64,000 bases of DNA from Pseudomonas protegens. Its GTDB lineage: Bacteria; Pseudomonadota; Gammaproteobacteria; Pseudomonadales; Pseudomonadaceae. The notes under the pieces are model-generated. The model was not told where the DNA came from and did not search any database. It saw only the letters and a list, made by a program, of their open reading frames with translations. The stretch lies in contig NZ_CP060201.1 of assembly GCF_013407925.2 (NCBI RefSeq), forward strand, positions 62,001 through 126,000. Reading direction: 5' to 3'. This document shows positions 9,724-22,085 of the stretch, one piece after another (the stretch's first letter is position 1; each line of letters opens with the position of its first letter). Position numbers and translations under genes: made by a program.

Positions 9724-11142
9724 CTACTCTGCTTCGCTACATTTACCCGACGAGCCGTCGCATTCATTAGAGTTAGGCGTTTTACTTTCCTTATATTTAT
9801 CTATGAATTTCTTACTTTCCGCCCCCCAGTCATTTTTATGCAAGAACCAATCATCCGAGAGCGCACTATGAGTGAGATTCCGCATAGCCCTATCGAAATC
9901 AGAGAACAGATCATCGACGACATTCAATGGCAGTTCAACTCTAACCAGATGAGAGCTGGTCGCAGTTACTTTGGCATCACTGAACAATTCCTCAATTCTA
10001 GGCCTCGAGAGAGCTATTGTAGTTTCCTGTTCAAGAGGCGAAAGTTTGATTAATTCATTCAAATCTTCCTTAAGAATTGAAAGCGACCACTCCAACGAAC
10101 GCACCAAATGCGATAGATGTTTACTCTCAATTTCTTCCGAAGTAACTAAAGGCAGATTTTCACCTTCCGTGCCGCTCGCAAACTCCTTTCGATATCGTAA
10201 CAATGATTCAATAGTCTGCAATACCCCAACGACCTGTGAAATCATGGATGAAACAGAACCATACAATATAGTAATTGGCATGTTGTATTGAGAGCTACCA
10301 ATACCTTTTTCGGGTGAAACTTGAGAGCTCGACACTTTATGATAATATGAGCCTGCCCCATAAACATCCTGAGACCAACTGTATCGTCCTTGTAGCTTAG
10401 CTAGCACTTGTGGGTAGACCGTACTCCACACACCGCTAACTGACGGGCCTCTATCTTCCGTCCATAAATTACTCAAAGGAATGGTGGTACATCTTTGACT
10501 TGCTACTAAAGCATCAATTTTTCGCTTATATTCTCCCTGAATCCTTTTTCCGCCCTCATCTATTAGCAATATTAGATGACATTCATTCAATCCTTCAGCT
10601 TCAAGCGCATCGAGAATTTCAACCACAGCTCGACCAGAGATCACGGTATCAATAAAAATAAACTTGCTAGACGGAAGATTTCTAGGCAAAACAGACGTCA
10701 ACTCTTTCTTCTGTAAGTGCTCAACAATTTTTTGATAAAAAATGAGATGCGGATCTCTTCCGTCACGTCGAACAAGAGCTGAAAGCACCTTTACCCAGAA
10801 CGTACGAATACCCTTTGAGGTCTGCTTCTCCTCGTCAGGATCAGCCGAAAATGGCAGCATCGTTACCGCATGCATAGGAGACCCTAGCATTTCTATTTTA
10901 GATAGAAACCGGTCCTCTGATGATTGAAGATTTCTTATTTCGTAATGCCAGGCATGTTGAGCAGCGCGAAATAGAGGAACTGCTCCACGACTTGGGATTA
11001 CAATTGAGTCATACCCATCCAAAAAAAGCACCCTCAAATAATAAGCAAGGTCCTTAGCCGCTCGGCCATACTCAATAATATTCTCAGCAGTAAAAACATG
11101 CTCCAAGTAGTGATTGGAGATTGACAAATTATCCTTGCTCAC
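9724..11142 (-). CDS. Phosphoribosyltransferase-fold protein of unknown function
   Basis: A 472-residue protein from visibly AT-rich DNA, unlike the flanking genes. The N-terminal third resembles a type I phosphoribosyltransferase: SIVIPSRGAVPLF at residues 47-58, and FIFIDTVISGRAVVEIL at 161-177 in place of the PRPP-binding (V/I)xxDDVxxTG loop. The second Asp of that loop is replaced by Thr, so PRPP chemistry may be altered or lost. The C-terminal half, from about residue 270, is predicted mostly helical and is not recognised. The start is GTG at 11142 with a perfect AAGGAGG five bases upstream. The gene stands apart from the operon upstream, behind a pseudogene. I cannot assign a substrate; a defence or nucleotide-related role is inferred only from its setting. 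Confidence 0.75.
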   Translation of the reverse strand: MSKDNLSISNHYLEHVFTAENIIEYGRAAKDLAYYLRVLFLDGYDSIVIPSRGAVPLFRAAQHAWHYEIRNLQSSEDRFLSKIEMLGSPMHAVTMLPFSADPDEEKQTSKGIRTFWVKVLSALVRRDGRDPHLIFYQKIVEHLQKKELTSVLPRNLPSSKFIFIDTVISGRAVVEILDALEAEGLNECHLILLIDEGGKRIQGEYKRKIDALVASQRCTTIPLSNLWTEDRGPSVSGVWSTVYPQVLAKLQGRYSWSQDVYGAGSYYHKVSSSQVSPEKGIGSSQYNMPITILYGSVSSMISQVVGVLQTIESLLRYRKEFASGTEGENLPLVTSEEIESKHLSHLVRSLEWSLSILKEDLNELIKLSPLEQETTIALSRPRIEELFSDAKVTATSSHLVRVELPLNVVDDLFSDFDRAMRNLTHSALSDDWFLHKNDWGAESKKFIDKYKESKTPNSNECDGSSGKCSEAE

Positions 11143-11163: not shown

Positions 11164-11662
11164 TCATGATCTGCTCAAAGCATTTAATATAATAACCGAA
11201 TTAAACTTCGAAACCGCCACCACCCTAACACCAACACTTCCAAGTTCTAAACCTACACATTCCAAAGCAAGAGCTAACGACCTTTTGGTGCCGATCCGAT
11301 TTTGAACCCGGCTACCAGAATTCATTGATCCCTCCGAGCTCTCGAAAAATGATGGTCTTGGATTCATAGCTCTGTTGATGAAAAGGATGAGATGGTTCCC
11401 GACTGGATGCTGCTTTTGCATTTGTGCCAAAGCGTTGAAACAAGCGCTTCCACTTGGTGTAGTTGGCGTCGGCGTCCGGAACGCGAATGTCTTGGAGGAG
11501 ATATCCAATTTGAGTGCCCCTCAAGCCACGTTCCGTATCAGCCAGAACACGACATGCAGCTTCTAGGTGTTGCGAACTAAAAGGTGGGATGCGGGTACTC
11601 AAAGCCAATCTCCATCGGTAAACACTAGAGTGCCACTCGAGCAGCTGGGAAAAATAGCCCAT
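11164..11662 (-). pseudogene. Frameshifted, truncated TIGR02391 (Ymh) family gene
   Basis: The first frame (start 11662) carries STRIPPFSSQHLEAACRVLAD, RGLRGTQIGYLLQDIRVPD and TKWKRLF. The sense then continues in a second frame as NALAQMQKQHPVGNHLILF and INRAMNP. These pieces match the N-terminal half of TIGR02391 proteins, often found in phage-defence neighbourhoods, where PPFS..LE.....DT..GL.G.EI is followed by TKWKRL..AL...QN. The frame changes near 11440. Later sequence only faintly recalls the family (LALALECVGLELG), and the C-terminal domain is missing, ending at a stop near 11164. Probably a dead gene; a sequencing error alone would not explain the missing C-terminus. Confidence 0.65.
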
Positions 11663-11697: not shown

Positions 11698-12483
11698 CTA
11701 ACCCTCAATATCCGATCTGAGGTTTTCCTCCAGATGCTCAACTCTGGATGTGCCCGGGATTGGGAACATGACCGTCGAGTAATTCAGAAGCCATTTCAAG
11801 GCATGGGCTGCCGAAGCGGATTGGTTTCGAACCTCACCGGATGAAAAATACCTTCCGGCGCTCAGAGGCGCGTAGGGAATGAACGCTATTTCGTTCTGCT
11901 CACACCAGCGGATCACATCCTCGGACTGGTAATCCAGGATACTAAATTGATTCTGAACCGCGACGATGGGTGCAATCGTAATCGCCTGCGTGAGTTGAAG
12001 AATATCGACTTTCGACAAGCCTAGGCATTTGATCTTCCCTTCTTGACGCATCTTCTCAAGCTCCCCAACCTGGTCAGCCAAAGGGACATTTGGATCGACA
12101 CGGTGCAAGTAATACAGATCTATCGCTTCGACGTTGAGCTGCCTGAGGCTCATCTCAACGCACTGACGCAAATACGCTGGAACGCCACATGGCGTCCACT
12201 TGCCAGGGCCTTGGCGGGTGAAGCCACCTTTAGTCGCAATGATCAGGTCGTCGGCATAGGGAAATAACGCTTTACGAATTAGCTCCTCGGCCACATTTGG
12301 CCCATACGCGTCAGCGGTATCGATGTGCTGCACGCCCAACTCCACCGCTTTACGCAGGAGCTGAACAGCATCAGCTTCTGAAGCTGGTGGGCCCCAGATG
12401 CCCGGCCCCGTGAGCCTCATGGTACCAAGCCCGAGGCGCCTAACCTGCTTTCCTGCCAAGAGTCCCGTACGGGCGGCGGTCAT
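11698..12483 (-). CDS. Aldo/keto reductase (YdbC/PdxI-like)
   Basis: A 261-residue NADPH-dependent oxidoreductase of the aldo/keto reductase fold. The tetrad residues are in place: Asp and Tyr in HIDTADAYGPN, Lys in IIATKGGF and His in LYYLHRVDP. The C-terminal FPIPGTSRVEHLEENL is the usual NADP-binding segment. The sequence is closest in style to E. coli YdbC (PdxI), a pyridoxal reductase; an aldehyde substrate is expected but not defined. At 261 residues it is slightly short at the C-terminus. Its ATG overlaps the stop of the P-loop kinase gene by ATGA, making it the last gene of a coupled four-gene operon. A general metabolic enzyme tied this way to a radical SAM protein and an exonuclease is unusual. 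Confidence 0.85.
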   Translation of the reverse strand: MTAARTGLLAGKQVRRLGLGTMRLTGPGIWGPPASEADAVQLLRKAVELGVQHIDTADAYGPNVAEELIRKALFPYADDLIIATKGGFTRQGPGKWTPCGVPAYLRQCVEMSLRQLNVEAIDLYYLHRVDPNVPLADQVGELEKMRQEGKIKCLGLSKVDILQLTQAITIAPIVAVQNQFSILDYQSEDVIRWCEQNEIAFIPYAPLSAGRYFSSGEVRNQSASAAHALKWLLNYSTVMFPIPGTSRVEHLEENLRSDIEG

Positions 12484-13061
12484 AAGTGCTCCAATTTTTG
12501 AAGGATTTGAGTGTGTAAGCTATCGAGAAGAGCATCCCGTACGTCAGGAACAAGCATCTGATGCTGGATCCCGAAGTCGCTCAAAATCTGGTGCAAATGG
12601 CTGTCGACGGACGCCCTGAAAGGCAAGTTGGTATCACGTCCTGGGCCAAGAGCAATGGAGCTATCAAGCCTGGTCGCAACGATCGTCGTGTAGCCAGGAA
12701 GCTGGCTGGTGATTAATGACCTGACCGCATCTACCTGATGCATCGGTGCAGGTGTACCCCGATGCTCGACTGCGGCATTCCAATACGCCACGGCATCGAT
12801 GATCGGTCGATCAACCAATATCACCTCGGCAGCGTCAGCCGCTGCTCGTTGCGCCTCGAGCGTACGGTCGATAAACCACATCGTGGAGTCGTAGGTATGC
12901 TGAGTGAGCAGCGGGATACCTTGCTGTACCGCCAGCTTCCCGAAAGATGGAATGGTCGCAATGCAGATGCCTTTGCACTCAAGTGAAGCTTTGAGCGCTT
13001 CACAGAAGGTGGACTTTCCCGTGGAGTGCGTTCCAGTGACACCTAAAAAAACAGATTTCAC
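12480..13061 (-). CDS. P-loop NTPase / nucleoside-kinase-like protein (AAA_28, NadR-kinase-like)
   Basis: A 193-residue protein with Walker A GTHSTGKST at residues 10-18 and a Walker-B-like strand VILVDRPIIDAVAYW. It is organised like the AAA_28 family, which includes the ribosylnicotinamide kinase domain of NadR and related thymidylate-kinase-like enzymes. A phosphotransfer role on a small nucleoside or cofactor is the likeliest reading. I chose the GTG at 13061: it overlaps the exonuclease stop as GTGA and has AAGGA about 8 bases upstream. A longer frame to 13142 would overlap the exonuclease gene by 85 bases. It sits between the exonuclease and the aldo/keto reductase in a coupled operon. 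Confidence 0.75.
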   Translation of the reverse strand: MKSVFLGVTGTHSTGKSTFCEALKASLECKGICIATIPSFGKLAVQQGIPLLTQHTYDSTMWFIDRTLEAQRAAADAAEVILVDRPIIDAVAYWNAAVEHRGTPAPMHQVDAVRSLITSQLPGYTTIVATRLDSSIALGPGRDTNLPFRASVDSHLHQILSDFGIQHQMLVPDVRDALLDSLHTQILQKLEHL

Positions 13062-13672
13062 CACAGGCTTCCTTGCTCCGGGGGAGGCGACTGCTCGTAA
13101 GGTTGCGTTTTGAGCTGCGCAATTTTGCAGATTTCCTGCCAAGTGCTGGCAGATGACTTTTCGATGAGATGATCAAGCAATAACGCCGTTGCATAAGCAT
13201 CATCAGCTGCTCGGTGGAGCTGGTCGGCGACCTTATCGCGCAGCCCTGTGTCAATGAGCAATGATTCAAGCCGATGGCTTTTGGCGTTAGGGTAAACGTG
13301 ACGAGCAAGTTTCAACGTGTCGATGACTCCCACCGGCGACCATTCGGGCAGGTGACGCTTCATCACGCCATAGTCGACCGACGCATTGTGCGCGACGAAC
13401 CATCGGTTCTGCAGGTGCTGTTCGACGTCGTCCATGATCTCAGCCCAGGATTGGCAACTTTCCAGCTCCGCATTTTTAATACCGTGGATTCGCTGGGCCA
13501 GCCAAGTGATCCGGTTGACGGGTTTGATTAACCAAGACAAAAGTTCGCGGTTTTCCATCGGTGGAAATGAGGCGATTCCCACTTCGACCAAGTCGGGTGG
13601 CGTATGTCCATTGCCCTCAACGTCTACGATGATGATTGGTTCAGAGGGCCAGACGAAGTCTGTTTTCAGCAT
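13058..13672 (-). CDS. DEDDh 3'-5' exonuclease (DnaQ-like)
   Basis: A 204-residue single-domain exonuclease. Motif Exo I is IIIVDVEGNG with Asp17 and Glu19, Exo II is VAHNASVDYGVMKRHL, and Exo III is HRAADDAYATALLL with the His and Asp of the DEDDh class. These residues bind two metal ions and cut DNA or RNA from the 3' end. Such small enzymes act as proofreading subunits, RNases or oligonucleotide trimmers, and the target cannot be read from the sequence. Its ATG at 13672 overlaps the radical SAM stop (TGATG) and its own stop overlaps the next start, so it should be made in step with both partners. Confidence 0.88.
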   Translation of the reverse strand: MLKTDFVWPSEPIIIVDVEGNGHTPPDLVEVGIASFPPMENRELLSWLIKPVNRITWLAQRIHGIKNAELESCQSWAEIMDDVEQHLQNRWFVAHNASVDYGVMKRHLPEWSPVGVIDTLKLARHVYPNAKSHRLESLLIDTGLRDKVADQLHRAADDAYATALLLDHLIEKSSASTWQEICKIAQLKTQPYEQSPPPEQGSLW

Positions 13673-14808
13673 CAGAGATTCCTTGTTGCCTCGGCGCGGC
13701 CATGGCGCGCGTAGTGGTGGGGCTTGTCAGCGTCGTGCACCTGATAGCCTAGGGAGTGCTGTAAATAGTAACGACGCTGTTCGTCCAGACCACGAACGAC
13801 AATCGCACGGTCGTTCACCTGCGGGTCTTCCACAGCACCCAGCTCGTGGCACATTCGATTGAGAATCTGCTGATCTGGCTTCTTCCATGCCGCCTTGCAG
13901 ATGGAGAATTGCGAGCTAGGGCAGGTATCGCACAGTTCGGTGATGCCGAAGTGTCCGTTGTAATCGGGTTGCAGATGCGCATAGGCGACTCCGCAAGAGG
14001 TTTTGTGGAAGATCGGTGTCACCTGATTCTGCTCCCCGTACAACCTCAATAGCCTCTGCTCATCTTCCAGTGGGAGGAGCTTTCGCCTGGCCGTCATTTT
14101 GTATGGCTCAGGGATTCCTTGGCTCTGGTAAAACTCGGCTATCTCCTTTCGATAGAACAGCCCGCTAAATACGGTCGCGTGGGCATAGTTAGCGAGCGCC
14201 GCGGCCTTTGCAATGTGCTCTGACGAGTCGTTTAGCCCTGGAACGATCGGGCGCCAATACAACACCACTTTGTAGTGCCTGGCATGGCGGAACAGCATCT
14301 TCAGGCTATTGGCAGCAATCGAAGACTTGATGGGTTCGATCTTCGGATCATCAATTCCTGAGTACGTAACCAGCACTGTCAGCTTGATATTTCTGAGCGT
14401 ATTGAAGCGCTCGCAATCGTCCTGAGATACACGCCATCGAGTGATAACAAGCACATTGTTGGTTAGCCCAGCCTCATTAAGCATACGCAGCAGATTGTGG
14501 GTATGACTCTTGACCTCGGGGAGCATCGGGTCGGTGGCCCGGTTGAACAGCTGAATAGGTGTGATATGAGGCTGGAAATACCTGTGATTGATAAATCGCT
14601 GGAAGGCTTCTTCATCGCTCATCAGCGCCTGCGGCGTGCGCTGATCGAAATTTCCATAAAGGTGACGAACGCAGTAGCTGCAGTCGAGTGGACAGCCAAT
14701 GATGTGATTCAAACTGAGCCCGCTTTTGCGGTACCCGACTGGATCTACAAGACTCGGGTTCGCGTTTTGTAACTGCGTCGAGTTGATGATTCTGACCTGG
14801 GATCTCAC
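13672..14808 (-). CDS. Radical SAM protein (SPL/photolyase-like) leading a coupled operon
   Basis: A 378-residue protein with a radical SAM cluster motif CPLDCSYC (Cys39, 43 and 46, CX3CX2C). This spacing and the following VRHLYGNF resemble the spore-photoproduct-lyase-like family. The C-terminal third has four further cysteines (TSCGVAYAH and ELCDTCPSSQFSIC), suggesting a second cluster or a zinc site. The expected chemistry is 5'-deoxyadenosyl radical formation; the substrate, perhaps a nucleic acid or nucleotide, is unknown. I chose the GTG at 14808 because AGGAG lies 7 bases upstream; an in-frame ATG at 14988 has no ribosome binding site. It is the first of four genes overlapping by 1-4 bases and begins 236 bases after the hamB stop. 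Confidence 0.8.
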   Translation of the reverse strand: MRSQVRIINSTQLQNANPSLVDPVGYRKSGLSLNHIIGCPLDCSYCVRHLYGNFDQRTPQALMSDEEAFQRFINHRYFQPHITPIQLFNRATDPMLPEVKSHTHNLLRMLNEAGLTNNVLVITRWRVSQDDCERFNTLRNIKLTVLVTYSGIDDPKIEPIKSSIAANSLKMLFRHARHYKVVLYWRPIVPGLNDSSEHIAKAAALANYAHATVFSGLFYRKEIAEFYQSQGIPEPYKMTARRKLLPLEDEQRLLRLYGEQNQVTPIFHKTSCGVAYAHLQPDYNGHFGITELCDTCPSSQFSICKAAWKKPDQQILNRMCHELGAVEDPQVNDRAIVVRGLDEQRRYYLQHSLGYQVHDADKPHHYARHGRAEATRNL

Positions 14809-15044
14809 TGCGATGCTCCTTGCTTGCCATCGGATCATCAGATGGAGTGAGCGCCCATTTAGGGTGCCTACCCTCCCATCCTTGGTAGGTAACAATAATG
14901 GCCAGATGACAGCTTGATTTCTGAGCTCGCGGGGGAGCCAAGTTCGTATGGTAGGGCCAATAGTTTCGCTGTCCGCAGCTTCCGGCATACGGAGAATTTA
15001 TCGTTTATCCTGATCGACTTCGTAGGCGCTTCTAAGATCCTCAA

Positions 15045-17510
15045 TCAGATGGGTTTGAGGTTCATCTTGGCTTCAAAAATCAGCAGATCGCTTTCCTCGT
15101 TGTTGATCATCATGTTGACTAGGCGAGGGCTTACTTCGATCTCGCCGCCGAGCGTCGCACGCACGGTTTCGGGGTACCGTTCGAGCATCAGATCCGCCAA
15201 GCCATGGCTGTAGCCATCGCGGATGAGCTTGATCTTGGTGTCATCCGCGGTACCGTATTTGATGAGTTTGTAGAACCCTGGATCCAGGGCTCCTACCCCA
15301 TTCAGCACCTCGACGAACTTGAAAATCTTGTTGTCGAAGAAATCGTCCTCGTCCTTGAGACGGACGATTGCCAGGTTAATACGCTCGCCGTCATCCTTTT
15401 GGGAGATTCTTACCCAGTTCTCGTACTTGCTGTCGCGATATTTGGTATCACCCCATTTACCCACGAATACGTGATCACTATGGCTAGTCTCGACCAGCTT
15501 TTTCCAGTACGCGAGCGTCTGTCGGATCGTCTGCTTGACGCTGAGTTTCTTCAGCTTCCAATCCAGGATCATGGCGTAGAAATTCCGGGCAGGCTCTTGC
15601 TTGAGACGCACCAGGTCGCTGTACTCTCGGCTGTCGTCGAAGTGATCGACGAACGATTTGGAGATCGCAAGCATCAGCCTGTCAACGGTATTGATGACGC
15701 CGTTCGCCTCGATGCCTCGCCTGATCTTCCGTTCAATAGCCTGCTCCTCTGAAAACACGTCAATTTCACTGACACTATTCGCGATGAGGAGCTTGCCCAC
15801 CTGAGTGGTAACGTAACGACACTCTCGATCTTTAACCACGCCAGGATGCAGATTCTCTAGACGAGCCACGGCGTCGTCGTAGAGAACCGACACCTTCCCA
15901 TCGATGATCTTGGTGGCTTCAAGCAGAACGTTGCTGACAGTGTCCTTGACCACCTTTGAGACGTTGACGGATTTATCGTAGAAGGTCTCAAGCGCTGCAT
16001 TTTCGCGTGTGTAGCCATTTACGCCCAACAGGTAGATGCTGGACTCCAGCTTTCTCAACGCAGCCTTAGCTCCAGGCGCAAAGACCTCACTGAACCGATT
16101 GACGCGTCCGACCAGGTTCTTGAATTGAGATGGCGTCAGCTTTTGCTTCCCTTTGAAAAAATCAAAAACGAAGAGTCGTTCGATCGGCAGGTTCACCCCT
16201 TCCAGAAGCGTGGAGTTGCAGACCAGAAACCTCATCTGCTTGGAGCTACTGAAGAGGTTCTCCAAGTAAAGACGGATGGTGTCAGGGATCGAACCATGGT
16301 GGTACATAACCCCTTTGCGCAGGCAGCCGATCAGTTTGTAGCGTCGGTCAAAAAGCTCTCCTAGCTCGGCACAGGCCGTCTGGATCAGCGGACAATCTAC
16401 GGGCGGCAGCACGGCTGCCAGTTCAACCGCAAATGACTCAATGCTTTTCTTCCTGTTGCCGTAAACAATGTTTTTGGACAGTGCTTCGCCTTTGATGAGC
16501 TCGAAGCAGTTTGCATACCTCCGATCGAACTCCATCCAGTCATTCAGGAAATGGTCATAGAGCTTGAGCTTCGTCTGGCCCCTCCCTCCCCTAAAATCCC
16601 TGATATAGAAGCGCTCAGACTTGATGTACTCGTCGATCTTGAATCCGCTCGGGATCATGTCCAGGAAGCGCACACGGACGTTGAGTTCATCGCATAGGAA
16701 GGGAGTCAGGAACTTGAATGATGTTTCCGGATTACGAGCCCCCAGGATGCACAGCATGGCGGCCAGTAACTCATTTCTGCGGTCGCTCTGCAGCAGGTTG
16801 TGGGCCTCGTCGACGAAGACCATATCGAAGCTCAGCCCGGCGTTCTCGTTCAAGAGCCTGTTGAGCCGCTCCTGGGTCAGGACAAATGCCCTGTTCTTTC
16901 GCTCAACCGAATACATCTCGGGATGGGTCACCACCTTGCCCAACCCCTCAATGTCCGCGTAGATCAACCGCTTTTTCGTCTGGGCCAGCAGAGCCTTAGA
17001 AGGCACAAGGATCAGGATCCGCTGCCCTGGATTTTCCCTCACCGATTGAATGATGAGCTCAGATTTACCGTAACTGGTCGGAGCAACCACGACTGACGAC
17101 TTACGGTACTCCGACTGAACAAATGTCCGCAGGGCATCCTGTTGCTCAGTCAGCACGATGCCTTGATCACGGAAGGTATCGATGTAGCTGCCCACGATGT
17201 TTCGGATGAACGACTCGCTGCGGTGATCATCCTCGGAAAAGTAGCTGCTGATTACTGCTGAGACAGGGTGAAGACCACTGTTGAGTGCTACATCGTACAG
17301 CGCCTGGTACTGACCCGAAGCGTTACCGTAAAACAGGATAATGCGGTAGCCGAGACGTCGAATTTCGAGGGTCTTGTGGTTAAGGAGCAGCACGGCGATC
17401 GCCAAAAGTTTCACAATCTCTGTGTTACCCAGTTCGTCTCCCTTGAGGAGTTGGAAATACAGATCCTTGAACTTGGTGTTGCCCAGTTTCCTGATAGTCA
17501 GCTCTTCCAT
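15045..17510 (-). CDS. hamB: HamB-like DEAD/DEAH helicase of a Hachiman/AbpAB-type defence pair
   Basis: An 821-residue superfamily 2 helicase. The Q-motif region LTEQQDALRTF is near residue 120, Walker A is APTSYGKS (143-150), motif Ia is LVPSKALLAQ, the DEAH box is VFVDEAHN (232-239), and later come STLLEGVNLP and the motif VI segment LVGRVNRF. The first 110 residues and about 300 C-terminal residues are family-specific. In Hachiman the helicase HamB holds the nuclease HamA in check and releases it when it meets damaged or phage DNA. The start lies one base after the stop of the HamA-like gene, so the two are translationally linked. AbpB is the main alternative name, as the AbpAB pair is closely related. 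Confidence 0.8.
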   Translation of the reverse strand: MEELTIRKLGNTKFKDLYFQLLKGDELGNTEIVKLLAIAVLLLNHKTLEIRRLGYRIILFYGNASGQYQALYDVALNSGLHPVSAVISSYFSEDDHRSESFIRNIVGSYIDTFRDQGIVLTEQQDALRTFVQSEYRKSSVVVAPTSYGKSELIIQSVRENPGQRILILVPSKALLAQTKKRLIYADIEGLGKVVTHPEMYSVERKNRAFVLTQERLNRLLNENAGLSFDMVFVDEAHNLLQSDRRNELLAAMLCILGARNPETSFKFLTPFLCDELNVRVRFLDMIPSGFKIDEYIKSERFYIRDFRGGRGQTKLKLYDHFLNDWMEFDRRYANCFELIKGEALSKNIVYGNRKKSIESFAVELAAVLPPVDCPLIQTACAELGELFDRRYKLIGCLRKGVMYHHGSIPDTIRLYLENLFSSSKQMRFLVCNSTLLEGVNLPIERLFVFDFFKGKQKLTPSQFKNLVGRVNRFSEVFAPGAKAALRKLESSIYLLGVNGYTRENAALETFYDKSVNVSKVVKDTVSNVLLEATKIIDGKVSVLYDDAVARLENLHPGVVKDRECRYVTTQVGKLLIANSVSEIDVFSEEQAIERKIRRGIEANGVINTVDRLMLAISKSFVDHFDDSREYSDLVRLKQEPARNFYAMILDWKLKKLSVKQTIRQTLAYWKKLVETSHSDHVFVGKWGDTKYRDSKYENWVRISQKDDGERINLAIVRLKDEDDFFDNKIFKFVEVLNGVGALDPGFYKLIKYGTADDTKIKLIRDGYSHGLADLMLERYPETVRATLGGEIEVSPRLVNMMINNEESDLLIFEAKMNLKPI

Positions 17511-17511
17511 G

Positions 17512-18312
17512 CTACTGCTCCGCCTCCTGCCTCAAAAACTCTTCCAGCTTTTCCATGGTGCCTTTGTGGAGGGACAGCACCCACACCGTTTTGAACACAG
17601 CTTCAGCTACCAGCTTGGTGGTGAAATTTGACACGGTATTTTCGGCGATAGCCTGGGACACTTCGCTGAACAGGGCAGAGACCAGAAACACATTGTTGTC
17701 CGAAGCAATCGCCCCGTCTTCTTCAGCCAAATCACCTTCCATCTCCAAGATCTCAATAACCGAGTCCCGGTAATTAGCTTTGTTGTGGATCGCATTTTTC
17801 GCGGCATTTATCGCATTGAGCCAGTGATTGAGCTCCGGCTCAGCCAAACGCCTCTTAAGGTCATCCCGAGCCAAACGCAATTGAGCACTTGTGGCCGAGC
17901 AAGAAGTCTTGTCCGCCCCTCTGCCGCCCGACTTGACCTCGGTGATCCAGACGTTGTTGGTTGAGGTCTCGTATAGGAGGAGATCGAAGCCCTTCCGGAT
18001 ACTCTTCTCTTCCATATTGAAGAACGGGGAGACCACATCGAAGTTGGGGAAGAGCTTCAGAATGATGACGTGAGACAGGAGCTCACCCAGCATACCAATC
18101 CGGGTTTCCCAAGTTTTCTTGGAATAGCGCTCGTTCCAGAAGTGCTTAATCGTCGCAGGGTATTTGTAGATCGCCCTGTCCTTGCTGGCCTGATCAGCAC
18201 CATGGCAGATACGGGTGAGGTTTTCCCTCAGCGCGAGCTTAAGCTCATCAGAAAAATTCTCGACACAACACAGGGCATACTGATCTACCTGCTTGAAGCT
18301 CACGCCATCCAT
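17512..18312 (-). CDS. hamA: HamA-like DUF1837 nuclease of a Hachiman/AbpAB-type defence pair
   Basis: A 266-residue protein with the layout of a PD-(D/E)XK nuclease of the DUF1837 (HamA/AbpA) family: GE at residues 76-77, Asp110 in IRKGFDLLLYE and Glu125/Lys127 in VWITEVKSGG. HamA nucleases degrade DNA once freed by the helicase partner, killing the infected cell or stopping the phage. I chose the ATG at 18312 with AGGAAG five bases upstream; a GTG at 18330 is in frame. The helicase gene follows after a single base. Nothing upstream for about 500 bases looks coding, so the promoter of the defence operon should lie there. Confidence 0.78.
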   Translation of the reverse strand: MDGVSFKQVDQYALCCVENFSDELKLALRENLTRICHGADQASKDRAIYKYPATIKHFWNERYSKKTWETRIGMLGELLSHVIILKLFPNFDVVSPFFNMEEKSIRKGFDLLLYETSTNNVWITEVKSGGRGADKTSCSATSAQLRLARDDLKRRLAEPELNHWLNAINAAKNAIHNKANYRDSVIEILEMEGDLAEEDGAIASDNNVFLVSALFSEVSQAIAENTVSNFTTKLVAEAVFKTVWVLSLHKGTMEKLEEFLRQEAEQ

Positions 18313-18821
18313 AACACTTCCTACAAACACTAAACCGCAGAATCCTCTTGCGGTTGCTGCGCGCGATCAATGATCCCGCCCTGATTAAGGGTAGGCACCA
18401 GCTGAGCAGCTGTGCGCGCGAGTGAGATCTGGTCAGGGATGACCGATAGTGGCACTCTGTCAGCATTACCGCAAGTTAGCGTGATTGACGGGAGCGGTAA
18501 ACAACAACGGAGACAATTTTTGGTGCAAATCGTCGGAGGTTGCGTAATGGCTGTATAAGTATCCAGATGTTCGCAGATCAATCAGCGTCGGACTGAAAGA
18601 TTCGCAGCACCGTAGACAGCTCTATCCGACGTCGCTGGTAATTCCCGACTGAGAGGTAGGCAATGTGAGCCCCCCTCTCCTCACTTATGAACTACTGAAA
18701 GCCATCTGAATCCATCTGGCTCTGCCGGAGATCGCCACTCGCGAACCTGATGCACTGGGGGCAAAACTGGGGGCACATTTGAATTTTTTCCGCCTGAAAA
18801 TATTGTCCTAGAGCCCAGTCA
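18313..18821. other. Non-coding right end of the island
   Basis: About 500 bases without a gene I can support. It should contain the promoter for the HamA/HamB genes. Near its end are the tandem CTGGGGGCA repeats. The frame around them (ALGAKLGAH on the plus strand) recalls some integrase C-termini but is too short to call. Confidence 0.5.
18755..18778 (+). repeat. Tandem CTGGGGGCA repeat, right island border
   Basis: CTGGGGGCAAAA is followed directly by CTGGGGGCACAT: two 12-base units about 45 bases inside the duplicated lysR end. The pair at 8573-8596 has the same sequence core, period and orientation. Confidence 0.5.
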
Positions 18822-19087: not shown

Positions 19088-19837
19088 TCATGCAGAGAAG
19101 GCGGCGAGCACATCGCTGGCAATCAGCTCTTTTCTGGCGTTGCACTGATCGTCGCCAGTCATGCGCCAGACATTCCAGCCGTTTTGCAGCTGACGCTCAC
19201 CGAACCGATTCATCACCGACTCCAGTGCGCTTTGCTTTTGCACTGGCAAGGCATTCAGCTTTTCCTCACTGAACCCATTGAAGTCAAAAACATCCCTGAT
19301 GTAGTGAGCATCGACTGCATTTCGAGTGGCCGCTGCCCATTTGCCGACCTGGTTACGCCCCTCCCACATCAAAGGGTGCAACTCGTCCGGGGTGTAAAAG
19401 CCCAAGCCGAACCCGGTTCCGTAACCCTGGCTTTCCTGATAGGCATACAGATATTCAAAGAGCTCGGTAAAGTCCTCCAGACGCCAGAACGATTCGATCA
19501 GTTGCTCGAGACTCATGACCTCGTCTGCGACGCTCAAGAGCAAGCCATTGTCGTGCAGGAAAACGGCACTGACATGACAGTTCATCGATTCGTCGCATTC
19601 ATCCTTTGACCAGATTCGCTCGGAATAAAGCGTTACTCCTGCGGAATCGGGAGCCAGCAAGTTCTTTTCATGATTTTTCTCAGAGAACTTGACGACTTTC
19701 CCGGCATTGTTACCGAAGCGTTCAATGGCCACTCCCAACTGCCCAAACCATTCCCTTAAAGAGACGCTGACGGCAGGCAATTGTGCCAAACCCTCCTTTT
19801 TCAAATGGGCGACAAGGAAATTGTACGGTCGACTCAT
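19088..19837 (-). CDS. Hypothetical protein, not recognised
   Basis: A 249-residue soluble protein that I do not recognise. It opens MSRPYNFLVAHLKKEGL and has a block of aromatic and acidic residues (QLIESFWRLEDFTELFEYLYAYQ), then GYGTGFGLGFYTPDELHPLMWEG in the middle. The last 60 residues are helical. There is no signal peptide, membrane segment or known catalytic motif. I chose the ATG at 19837 (GAGAG upstream) because the earlier part of the frame overlaps the TonB receptor end. It lies immediately outside the right border of the island, downstream of the receptor on the same strand, with a 121-base gap. Single or low-copy accessory genes of this kind often carry immunity or regulatory roles, but nothing here shows that. 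Confidence 0.55.
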   Translation of the reverse strand: MSRPYNFLVAHLKKEGLAQLPAVSVSLREWFGQLGVAIERFGNNAGKVVKFSEKNHEKNLLAPDSAGVTLYSERIWSKDECDESMNCHVSAVFLHDNGLLLSVADEVMSLEQLIESFWRLEDFTELFEYLYAYQESQGYGTGFGLGFYTPDELHPLMWEGRNQVGKWAAATRNAVDAHYIRDVFDFNGFSEEKLNALPVQKQSALESVMNRFGERQLQNGWNVWRMTGDDQCNARKELIASDVLAAFSA

Positions 19838-19958
19838 TTCGAGGCTCTCTTGGTTTTGGAGTTGCTGTGTATCACCGGCACAAGGTCCCATTGCAAACAG
19901 GCACGATGACCATCGTGTCAGCGGAACAAGCTCGGCCCGTACCAGCAAAACACACTCA

Positions 19959-22085
19959 CTATAAGGTGTAGGCAATGCCGACCTGCAGCGTTCGCGGAGC
20001 CCCAGGATAGGCGTAAACGTTGCCGAACGCGCCCTCTTCATAATCACGGTCAAACAGGTTTTTCAGATCCAGATTGAGCCGCACCTTGTCATTGACCTTG
20101 TAGAAACCGAGCAGGTTGACAACGGTGTAGCTGCCCATCGAAAACCCGGTATTGGCGGTTTGCCCGGCGCGCTCGTCGACGTACTTGAGTCCGCCCCCCA
20201 GGCCCAGGCCCTTGAGCATGCCGTCCTGGAACTCGTACATATTCAGCAGGCTGAAGCTGTTTTTCGGGATGTTCAGCAGCCGCGTGCCAGAGCGCAGCAC
20301 GTTGTCCTTGGTGACTTCGGCATCGACATAGGCGTAGCCGCCGATCACCCGCCACTCGGGCGTCAGGTTGCCGGCAACGTTGACATCCAAACCACGGCTT
20401 CGCACTTCACCGGCGGCCACGCTGAAGGTCGAGTCAACCGGGTCGGCGGTCAAGACGTTGCGCTTTTCGATCTGATAGATCGCCGCGTCGACACTCAACT
20501 GCTGATCCAGTGCTTCCCACTTGATACCCATTTCATAAGACTTGCCCTTCTCTGGCGCAAACCCGCCGCCGAGGCGGCTGGCGCCGGTGTTGGGCTTGAA
20601 CGAGCGCGCGGTGTCGGCGTAGAGCGCCAAGGTCTCGGTCAAGTCGTAGCTCACGCCAATGCGCGGTGTGACCGCGTTGTCACTGGCCTGCCAACTCTTG
20701 CCGCCGGGTACATAGGTTTCGTAGTCATGTTCGAAGCGTTCGAAACGCGCCCCTGCCAGCACTTTCAGTTTGTCGGTCAGGGCCACTTGATCCTGCACGA
20801 ACGCGGCATAGGTCTTGAGGTTTTCCTTGTCATGAGTCGGCGTGCGGGTCAGGGCCGGACGCGGCTGGCCGTACACTGGATCGAAGAGGTCGATGGGGTA
20901 CGCACCGACAGCGCCACTGGAGCGTTGAATGATCGACTGGTAGTCGTAGTCTTCATACTCGATGCCGGTGAGCAAAGTGTGCTGCAAACCGGCGGTATCG
21001 AAATGGCCGGTCAGATTGAGCTGGGCATCCCGGTCGGTCCATTCCAGCTTGCGATAGTTGAAATTGCGCCCCAAGGTGCGGCCGTCAGCGGCAATACCGT
21101 TGGCCTCGACCGCGTTGCCCTTGAGCGAACCATCGAGCCACTGCACACCACCCCCAAGGGTCCAGTCGTCGTTGAGCAGGTGTTCGAAGCGCAGTTGCGC
21201 CATGTTGTTGTCGTTGTGCAGTTTGCCAACGTCTTTTTCACCGAAAAAACTGTCGCGAGAAGCGCTGCCAATCTGCTTCGCGTAGCGGGTAACGCCTCGA
21301 TCCAGAGGCGCGTTGTTACGCATGAAATCGCCTTCGAAAATCAGCCGGGTCGCGTCGCTGACCTGCCAGCTGAGCACCGGCGTGACACCGTAGCGCTCGG
21401 TGTCGACATGATCGCGGAAGGTGTCGCCGCCCTCGCCCACGACGTTCAGTCGATAGGCCAGGCGCCCGTCTTCGTCCAGCGGCCCGGAAGCGTCCAGCGT
21501 GCCGCGCTTCATGCCCTGGTCGTTCAATTGACTGCCCAGGGTGACCGTGCGCTCGGGCAACGGCTGCTTGGAAACCACGTTGAAAGTACCGCCAGGATCA
21601 CCCCGGCCATAAAGCATGGTTGCCGGGCCGCGCAGCACTTCAAGGCGTTCGATGGTGTTGGCATCCGGCATGTTCGGATAGCCGCGGTTGATGGGAAAAC
21701 CGTTGCGGTAAAACTCGCCGGTGGTGAAGCCACGGACGGTAAACGTGGTCAGCCCCTGCCCACCAAAATTGTTCGCCCGCCCCACGCCCCCGGCGTAGTC
21801 CAGCGCGTCCTGCAAACGCGTGGCTCCAAGATCCTCCACCGCATCCTTGGCGACCACACTGATCGACTGCGGGGTTTCATGGATCGAAGTGTCAGTCCGC
21901 GTGGCGCTGGCCGAGCGCGTTGCGCGATAACCCTGCACCGGACCATCCGCCCTTTCGTAAGTCGCGGTGCCGATGACATCGGCGGTGTCCAACTCAAGGG
22001 TTGAGGGCTTTACCTGCGCTTGTTCAGCCCATGAGGTGGACGACAACGCTTGCAGCACACAAATGGAAAGCAGGGTTCGGCGCAT
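19959..22085 (-). CDS. TonB-dependent siderophore receptor
   Basis: A 708-residue outer-membrane receptor. A signal peptide (MRRTLLSICVLQALSSTSWA) precedes a TonB-box region. The plug domain follows (TPQSISVV, TTFTVRGFTTGEFYRNG, IERLEVLRGPATMLYGRGDPGGTFNVVSK), then the 22-strand barrel ending in the terminal aromatic-poor motif LQVGIAYTL. The GDPGG...NVVSK plug and the long barrel are typical of receptors for ferric hydroxamate and other siderophores (FhuE/FoxA/FiuA type); the ligand cannot be told. I chose the ATG at 22085 because the signal peptide starts there; longer frames to 22172 only add charged residues. A Fur-like site lies upstream. Confidence 0.9.
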   Translation of the reverse strand: MRRTLLSICVLQALSSTSWAEQAQVKPSTLELDTADVIGTATYERADGPVQGYRATRSASATRTDTSIHETPQSISVVAKDAVEDLGATRLQDALDYAGGVGRANNFGGQGLTTFTVRGFTTGEFYRNGFPINRGYPNMPDANTIERLEVLRGPATMLYGRGDPGGTFNVVSKQPLPERTVTLGSQLNDQGMKRGTLDASGPLDEDGRLAYRLNVVGEGGDTFRDHVDTERYGVTPVLSWQVSDATRLIFEGDFMRNNAPLDRGVTRYAKQIGSASRDSFFGEKDVGKLHNDNNMAQLRFEHLLNDDWTLGGGVQWLDGSLKGNAVEANGIAADGRTLGRNFNYRKLEWTDRDAQLNLTGHFDTAGLQHTLLTGIEYEDYDYQSIIQRSSGAVGAYPIDLFDPVYGQPRPALTRTPTHDKENLKTYAAFVQDQVALTDKLKVLAGARFERFEHDYETYVPGGKSWQASDNAVTPRIGVSYDLTETLALYADTARSFKPNTGASRLGGGFAPEKGKSYEMGIKWEALDQQLSVDAAIYQIEKRNVLTADPVDSTFSVAAGEVRSRGLDVNVAGNLTPEWRVIGGYAYVDAEVTKDNVLRSGTRLLNIPKNSFSLLNMYEFQDGMLKGLGLGGGLKYVDERAGQTANTGFSMGSYTVVNLLGFYKVNDKVRLNLDLKNLFDRDYEEGAFGNVYAYPGAPRTLQVGIAYTL

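Follow-up and report, generated by a model that had tools for sequence, protein, structure and literature searches.

A rare radical SAM, exonuclease and kinase operon in Pseudomonas protegens with clues to pyrimidine-nucleotide modification and a possible role against phage

We analyzed a 64,000-nucleotide stretch of Pseudomonas protegens DNA (contig NZ_CP060201.1 of assembly GCF_013407925.2, positions 62,001 to 126,000; hereafter the window) and, within it, an operon of four minus-strand genes at 11698-14808. The leading gene encodes a radical S-adenosylmethionine (SAM) enzyme, rSAM (13672..14808), of 378 residues from a GTG start, with CxxxCxxC at 39-46, four further invariant cysteines and a C-terminal extension. 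It is followed by a DEDDh 3'-5' exonuclease, EXO (13058..13672, 204 residues), a P-loop nucleoside/nucleotide kinase, KIN (12480..13061, 193 residues from GTG), and an aldo/keto reductase, AKR (11698..12483, 261 residues). An earlier note, made from the sequence of this DNA, had described the four as overlapping by TGATG, GTGA and ATGA, and the coordinates agree: rSAM runs from the GTG at 14808 to a TGA at 13674-13672 and overlaps the EXO ATG at 13672 (TGATG), EXO ends at 13058 across the KIN GTG at 13061-13059 (GTGA), and KIN ends at 12480, past the AKR ATG at 12483 (ATGA). The rSAM frame is open upstream as far as an ATG at 14988; its start is most likely the GTG at 14808, judging from the starts of relatives and from a Shine-Dalgarno-like GGAG (14816..14819, minus strand), a likely ribosome-binding site read from the sequence 7 nt before the GTG. 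Promoter and terminator scans of the operon gave no signal exceeding that of shuffled sequences.

The cluster motif of rSAM reads CPLDCSYC, and its cysteines (C39, C43, C46) are invariant in 48 aligned rows, as are the four extra cysteines that the earlier note had picked out (C272, C293, C296, C304). Outside these three cluster and four C-terminal positions no cysteine is invariant in the 48 rows; C132 is present in 90% or more of the 41 rows of a second alignment. Pfam PF04055 gives just a weak match (15.2 bits at E 0.024, below the cut-off of 29.5), and the enzyme is placed in the radical SAM superfamily by its motif together with its fold, a partial TIM barrel. It has the SPL fold: in the structural ranking SPL and PFL-activase tie as nearest, followed by RlmN, NifB, TYW1 and viperin, and several members of this group act on nucleotides or nucleic acids. 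The name SPL-like, given to it in the earlier note, therefore holds for the fold and fails for the sequence. From SPL itself rSAM differs by its low identity (10%, with no profile match), by the four-cysteine part, which lies beyond the aligned range of 2-269, and by its partners in a mobile operon.

EXO matches RNase_T (PF00929) above the cut-off (2.1e-14) and carries the complete DEDDh motif of DxE, Asp and HxxxxD, with D17, E19, D100, H153 and D158 in the window; across 89 aligned rows, with the window among them, position 100 holds D in 52 and E in 37. Its nearest solved structures are ExoX and the PolC exonuclease (1.3e-9 each), and PADLOC 2.0 recognizes it with a CRISPR-associated DEDDh model (8e-28) and with part of the longer PDC-S48 model (6e-20). 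KIN matches AAA_28 above the cut-off (1.3e-10) and has the Walker A motif and the fold of dTMP/NadR/dNK-type kinases. Its fold matches are NadR kinase, dTMP kinase and dCK, with NadR ahead by about 1.3-1.5 Z units, and Foldseek ranks dTMP kinase first; the description NadR-kinase-like thus fits at the fold level, where NadR stands about 1.3 Z units above the other two, and has no clear sequence relative among solved structures behind it. The window KIN is not a dTMP kinase proper, scoring 16.9 bits with PRK07933 against a cut-off of 193, with TIGR00041 not among its listed matches. AKR matches Aldo_ket_red (PF00248) above the cut-off (1e-59), has AKR13B2 as its nearest solved structure (5e-62), and keeps D55, Y60, K85 and H127, which we take to be the catalytic tetrad, in 98% or more of the 48 rows aligned. 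Among the NCBIfam families listed for the four operon proteins, none passes its cut-off. Motifs, folds and Pfam matches together uphold the families first assigned to the four proteins, including the intact DEDDh residues.

The gene set was followed across a working set of 97 loci comprising the window, a second Pseudomonas locus (L014), 8 plasmid records, 80 genome contigs and 7 viral contigs; L001-L005, L015 and L016 were removed as duplicates, and L018 and L019, whose rSAMs are near-identical, were counted as two. Profiles detected EXO in 92 of these loci, KIN in 89 and AKR in 54, AKR counts being low where contigs end early, together with a thymidylate synthase (TS)-like gene in 41 and a nucleoside diphosphate (NDP) kinase gene, NDK, in 41. 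With four further copies found by tblastn (L074, L081, L082, L090), EXO is present in 96 of 97 loci and missing only from the Nostoc plasmid L012; tblastn also shows an AKR in L075 that is absent from the profile count. In called layouts the operon genes lie on one strand with overlaps mostly of 1, 4 or 7 bases, and the same order recurs in other phyla at 50-60% rSAM identity, from Pseudomonas to Streptomyces. Chance clustering of short genes was rejected on this conserved order. The four genes are thus a unit, as proposed: most of the loci examined do not hold them apart, and in the genus KIN occurs only where rSAM does. Because AKR is frequent and optional, the core of the operon is the trio rSAM-EXO-KIN. 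In L052 a reversed frame intervenes, with KIN and AKR lying some 2 kb farther along.

The operon is rare, mobile and horizontally spread. In the window it lies within a low-GC stretch of approximately 8.6-19.9 kb (about 45-57% G+C, against 60-69% elsewhere). When 25 first-look candidates per genome were scored, the left flank was matched in all eight same-genus relatives, the right flank also in seven of the eight, and the operon in none; the two flanks are not adjacent in these relatives, so this empty-site comparison does not fix an insertion point. A protein search found rSAM in 4 of 398 Pseudomonas genomes, the window's own included, a search with KIN alone returned the same 4 of 398 with KIN beside rSAM, and in a phylum sample only the window's own genome carried rSAM (1/398). 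This rarity led us to reject a housekeeping pathway, the outcome that would have spoken against the earlier proposal of an undescribed system.

Beyond the genus, 233 rSAM relatives turned up in GTDB species contigs, the 80 best entering the analysis, and most rSAM copies are actinobacterial. Matches were also found in 37 plasmid records, including plasmids of soil, plant and marine bacteria, with 25 of the 37 covering 80% or more of the query, and, by an alignment-based scan, in 7 viral contigs; a phage origin of the gene was rejected, with no match in 50,697 phage records. A tree of 43 rSAM rows separates alphaproteobacterial, Pseudomonas/Pantoea, Pseudonocardiales/Nocardia and Streptomycetaceae-centred groups, and also holds cyanobacterial, Acidobacteriota and Nitrospirota rows. 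The last two come from near-identical metagenome bins, reflecting either gene transfer or a binning mix-up, which is why we give the number of phyla as four or five.

The strongest clue to the chemistry of the operon is a MilA-like gene that joins it in other hosts. A TS-family gene stands upstream of the operon in 41 of 97 loci, with NDK beside it in 40 by profile; L039 has NDK without TS, and L025 shows NDK in its called layout, not by profile. This extension is carried by Streptomyces, Kitasatospora, Kribbella and Streptosporangiaceae copies and by viral contigs. The one copy tested, from L007, belongs with MilA (4e-71) rather than with the best thymidylate synthase (7e-13), and the equivalents of MilA K133, C155, A176 and D186, mapped by hand through the L007-MilA alignment, are kept in 38, 38, 36 and 38 of the 38 aligned copies (of 41). 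According to PMC5175136, Lys133 and Ala176 of MilA set its ribose preference, Asp186 is linked to cytosine substrates, Cys155 is the nucleophile, and the enzyme is part of mildiomycin synthesis. With its NDP kinase, the TS-NDK branch would be expected to produce 5-hydroxymethyl-CMP and to assist its conversion to the triphosphate. No MilA-like gene was found next to the operon in the window or at the remaining proteobacterial loci examined; the window has no TS-NDK extension, and the substrate there would therefore be a normal nucleotide.

Two variant layouts concern the KIN and AKR positions. In the Promicromonosporaceae loci L086 and L095 a different P-loop protein occupies the KIN slot; that of L086 passes the TIGR00041 dTMP kinase model (105.1 bits, cut-off 83.25), and that of L095 resembles it by eye. 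On the alphaproteobacterial plasmids L010 and L013 an HD protein follows KIN, where AKR would be, and the L010 protein resembles dGTP triphosphohydrolase (6e-7), though its score does not reach the cut-off of that model. Taken together, the MilA-like gene, the NDP kinase and the dTMP kinase in the KIN slot point to pyrimidine-nucleotide modification. The earlier note had left the choice between a modified nucleotide and an NAD-type compound; these partner genes favor the former, and the latter draws mainly on the kinase fold.

The operon corresponds to no named defence system in PADLOC 2.0, again as first stated: rSAM and AKR match 0 families at E 0.1, and KIN matches only typeIV_RecD (0.025). 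An identity with viperin, for which PADLOC holds models, or with any other named PADLOC system was rejected for lack of a match. Compared with pVip, rSAM shows no sequence match to viperin chains and no PADLOC model match, and the operon has extras of its own in the four C-terminal cysteines, the exonuclease and the AKR. By type of enzyme and by layout, the operon shares with thmABC of Photorhabdus (PMC12691670) a radical SAM enzyme, a nucleoside kinase, a protective nucleotide-cleaving enzyme and a minimal, scattered cluster. In contrast, thmABC has an NTPase where the operon has an exonuclease and contains no AKR, and its triplets are reported from Enterobacterales and Vibrio whereas the loci studied here are mostly actinobacterial. 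That paper describes how, in E. coli, 4'-thiothymidine made through thmABC enters DNA and blocks replication, the NTPase alone giving resistance. No title or opening of an abstract in the literature searched, a scope that excludes preprints and most subscription papers, describes the operon, which may thus have been described elsewhere; PMC10853773 treats other systems.

The data show the operon and its conservation, the families and folds of its enzymes, its partner genes and the defence genes near proteobacterial copies; its substrate, product, target and anti-phage action are inferred. Our leading reading, to which we give slightly less than even confidence, is that the operon converts a pyrimidine nucleotide to an altered nucleotide that is used against phage replication in a viperin-like manner. 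Viperin, which makes ddhNTPs, is the defence precedent for altered nucleotides, and to our knowledge viperins are the only kind of radical SAM enzyme well known to make altered anti-phage nucleotides. A more detailed version, which we put forward as plausible yet rather doubtful, is a radical SAM antiviral nucleotide system unrelated to viperin in sequence, in which an SPL-fold enzyme with a four-cysteine site would make a chain-poisoning pyrimidine nucleotide, KIN would charge it, AKR would finish it and EXO would act as a proofreader sparing the host, with a 5-hydroxymethylcytidine version in streptomycetes.

In such a pathway rSAM would act on a (deoxy)pyrimidine nucleotide, taking a hydrogen from its sugar or its base, and would rearrange or dehydrate the nucleotide, and AKR would reduce a carbonyl arising on the way. 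KIN would phosphorylate the nucleotide, and a host or operon-encoded NDP kinase would bring it to the triphosphate, which would poison phage polymerases. EXO could protect the host by stripping the analogue from its 3' ends or by trimming blocked ends. In many Streptomycetaceae and their relatives a MilA-like CMP 5-hydroxymethylase and the NDP kinase would supply 5-hydroxymethylcytidine nucleotides, and on the two alphaproteobacterial plasmids the HD protein (one tested, dGTPase-like) could detoxify the product. If true, a second, sequence-unrelated radical SAM pathway across at least four phyla would widen the altered-nucleotide principle, bringing new nucleotide-analogue chemistry and an exonuclease packaged with the poison as host protection, all within a small operon of three or four genes and about 3 kb.

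The anti-phage part of this reading draws on the proteobacterial neighbourhood. For 12 proteobacterial loci 118 neighbours were listed, of which 114 were run against PADLOC with a threshold of 1e-10 and matched 213 families (best 4.8e-253); 114 control proteins from 9 of 12 arbitrary regions of three Pseudomonas genomes, mostly core and thus matching neither plasmids nor other accessory islands, hit 47 families with a best value of 1.1e-42, and GajB/UvrD-type helicase models make up most of the 25 listed. Since family counts differ from gene counts, 20 single neighbour genes were then scanned. These revealed PprDinG, PprPIWI, GajA and GajB at L020, PDC-S65 and ThsB at L018, SIR2 and HerA at L019, LmuA at L013 (7.2e-52), SngA at L017, and a CBASS cyclase with HORMA and TRIP13 at L021. 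L022 has a DpdF-like helicase (1.1e-16), and at L011, L014, L022 and L023 nothing strong appeared among the one or two proteins scanned singly per locus. In the window, a HamB-type helicase (15045-17510, best PADLOC match 2.9e-61) lies directly upstream of the operon, next to a very divergent HamA-like gene (17512-18330, best 2.1e-5). Altogether, 8 of 13 proteobacterial loci, the window with its HamB included, have a defence gene stronger than the control best, with L010 as a ninth of lesser strength. Searched by tblastn, HamA and HamB of the window gave no match at any other operon locus, though a HamB-like helicase does lie beside the operon in L009; a general link to HamAB, which the earlier note had proposed to score, is not supported, and Hachiman (HamAB) was rejected as a part of the operon and is regarded as a neighbour.

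Several observations weigh against the leading reading. Given the composition of the control, the defence enrichment may reflect island location alone, and two of the individual cases are modest: the HamB-like helicase beside the L009 operon (7.5e-45) barely exceeds the control best, and the type IIG enzyme of L010 (6.8e-28) is weaker than it. Most copies are actinobacterial, and a sample of 10 of the 44 full-length loci there supplied 111 neighbours, which matched 42 PADLOC families, close to the control's 47, and show no clear defence link by comparison with this Pseudomonas-only control. The leading actinobacterial matches, LmuB (6.6e-198), PD-T4-6 (5.7e-61) and mad6 (3.1e-53), do exceed its best value; PD-T4-6 models are protein kinases, which are abundant in this phylum. 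The response to phage that had been suggested for the operon is therefore supported only by location, in Proteobacteria, and has no clear signal in Actinobacteria. Furthermore, no sensor or effector gene constant across loci appeared among the sequence clusters, the largest of which outside the operon and the TS-NDK extension covers 36 loci and is a mostly divergent helix-turn-helix regulator.

The proteins themselves add to these counterpoints. The TM-scores of rSAM against SPL and PFL-activase are just 0.44-0.46 by query, and its profile found no sequence match among solved structures at E <= 1, SPL and viperin chains included; for KIN the best match among solved structures is 0.0018. In L008 and L078 rSAM is divided between two frames, giving the look of a broken gene, and an altered Walker A motif in three actinobacterial kinases (L025, L031, L066) suggests that kinase activity may have been lost there. 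KIN and AKR are both lacking in five Streptomyces-type copies (L026, L033, L044, L085, L096), and L054 and L064 have only a short KIN match.

The next most probable explanation is a small nucleoside-antibiotic cluster like thmABC, in which a nucleoside would be released against competitors, KIN or the host would activate it, and EXO and the HD protein would confer self-resistance. Most copies lie in actinomycetes, which are rich in antibiotics; on the other side, an exonuclease in 96 of 97 loci would be unusual for a secreted antibiotic. The operon also sits among phage-defence genes in Proteobacteria, and no constant transporter was found among the sequence clusters (MFS_1 in 2 of 111 actinobacterial neighbours), a point of limited weight since a transporter that varies in sequence would escape such clustering and thmABC as published also has none. 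In its favour stand thmABC, a radical SAM enzyme, a nucleoside kinase and an NTPase that make 4'-thiothymidine, with thmC alone giving resistance (PMC12691670), and the place of MilA in mildiomycin synthesis (PMC5175136). Overall we consider an antibiotic unlikely, if second only to the leading reading. Under another alternative, islands and plasmids would carry the operon as cargo for ordinary accessory metabolism that salvages an unusual nucleotide. This would suit the plasmids of soil, plant and marine bacteria, the lack of a constant sensor or effector and the unclear actinobacterial signal; the repeated placement near many different proteobacterial defence systems, relative to random regions and within the limits of that control, makes it improbable.

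The enzyme folds suggest two further readings. An SPL-like enzyme could reverse or cut a pyrimidine lesion or a hypermodified phage base, with EXO freeing the nucleotide and KIN recycling it. Such repair or removal leaves AKR and the MilA-like gene with its NDP kinase unexplained and is at odds with the sporadic presence of the operon. Moreover, a hydrogen-donor cysteine of the SPL type, which we take to be C140/C141 in SPL, is not evident in rSAM, where only the cluster and C-terminal cysteines are invariant in the 48 rows, and we judge this reading fairly unlikely. The NadR-like fold of KIN would be in keeping with a nicotinamide riboside-type kinase acting alongside an rSAM and AKR that alter a dinucleotide cofactor. 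Foldseek, however, puts dTMP kinase first, dTMP kinase and dCK lie within about 1.5 Z units of NadR, the partner genes are pyrimidine enzymes, and a SIR2 gene directly after AKR is seen only in L018 and L019, making an NAD or cofactor pathway the least probable of the alternatives, and very improbable in itself.

Several neighbouring genes were recorded in addition. In L018 (11113-12888) and L019 (13172-14638) a SIR2-domain protein, PDC-S65 in the former, begins 63 bases downstream of AKR, on the AKR strand, and is possibly an add-on effector. An uninterrupted Hypoth_Ymh gene of 281-289 residues follows AKR in L014 and L017, at the place where the window has a broken Hypoth_Ymh (PF09509) remnant (11359-11662, minus strand) covering approximately the first 101 residues in two frames. 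Occurring at two loci each, the Ymh-type and SIR2 downstream genes were rejected as fixed effectors. The low-GC island of the window further encodes a 472-residue protein (9724-11142, minus strand) that lacks any Pfam match and gives just a weak hint of orotate phosphoribosyltransferase (0.016), and at the island's edge lies a 321-residue frame (19088-20053, minus strand) for which Pfam, PADLOC and NCBIfam gave no family. In five Pseudonocardiales loci (L040, L047, L059, L072, L077) a divergent trio of asparaginase-like, small PPC-like and helix-turn-helix-like genes stands just upstream of the operon, and in three actinobacterial loci (L063, L086, L087) a PCMT-type methyltransferase gene, its family shown for L063, lies downstream of AKR or KIN. 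Finally, the Streptomyces plasmid pFRL6 (L105) carries a distant relative of rSAM (27% identity) together with two dCTP deaminases, a cytidine deaminase, a nucleotidyltransferase and a glycosyltransferase, possibly another nucleotide-modification cluster.

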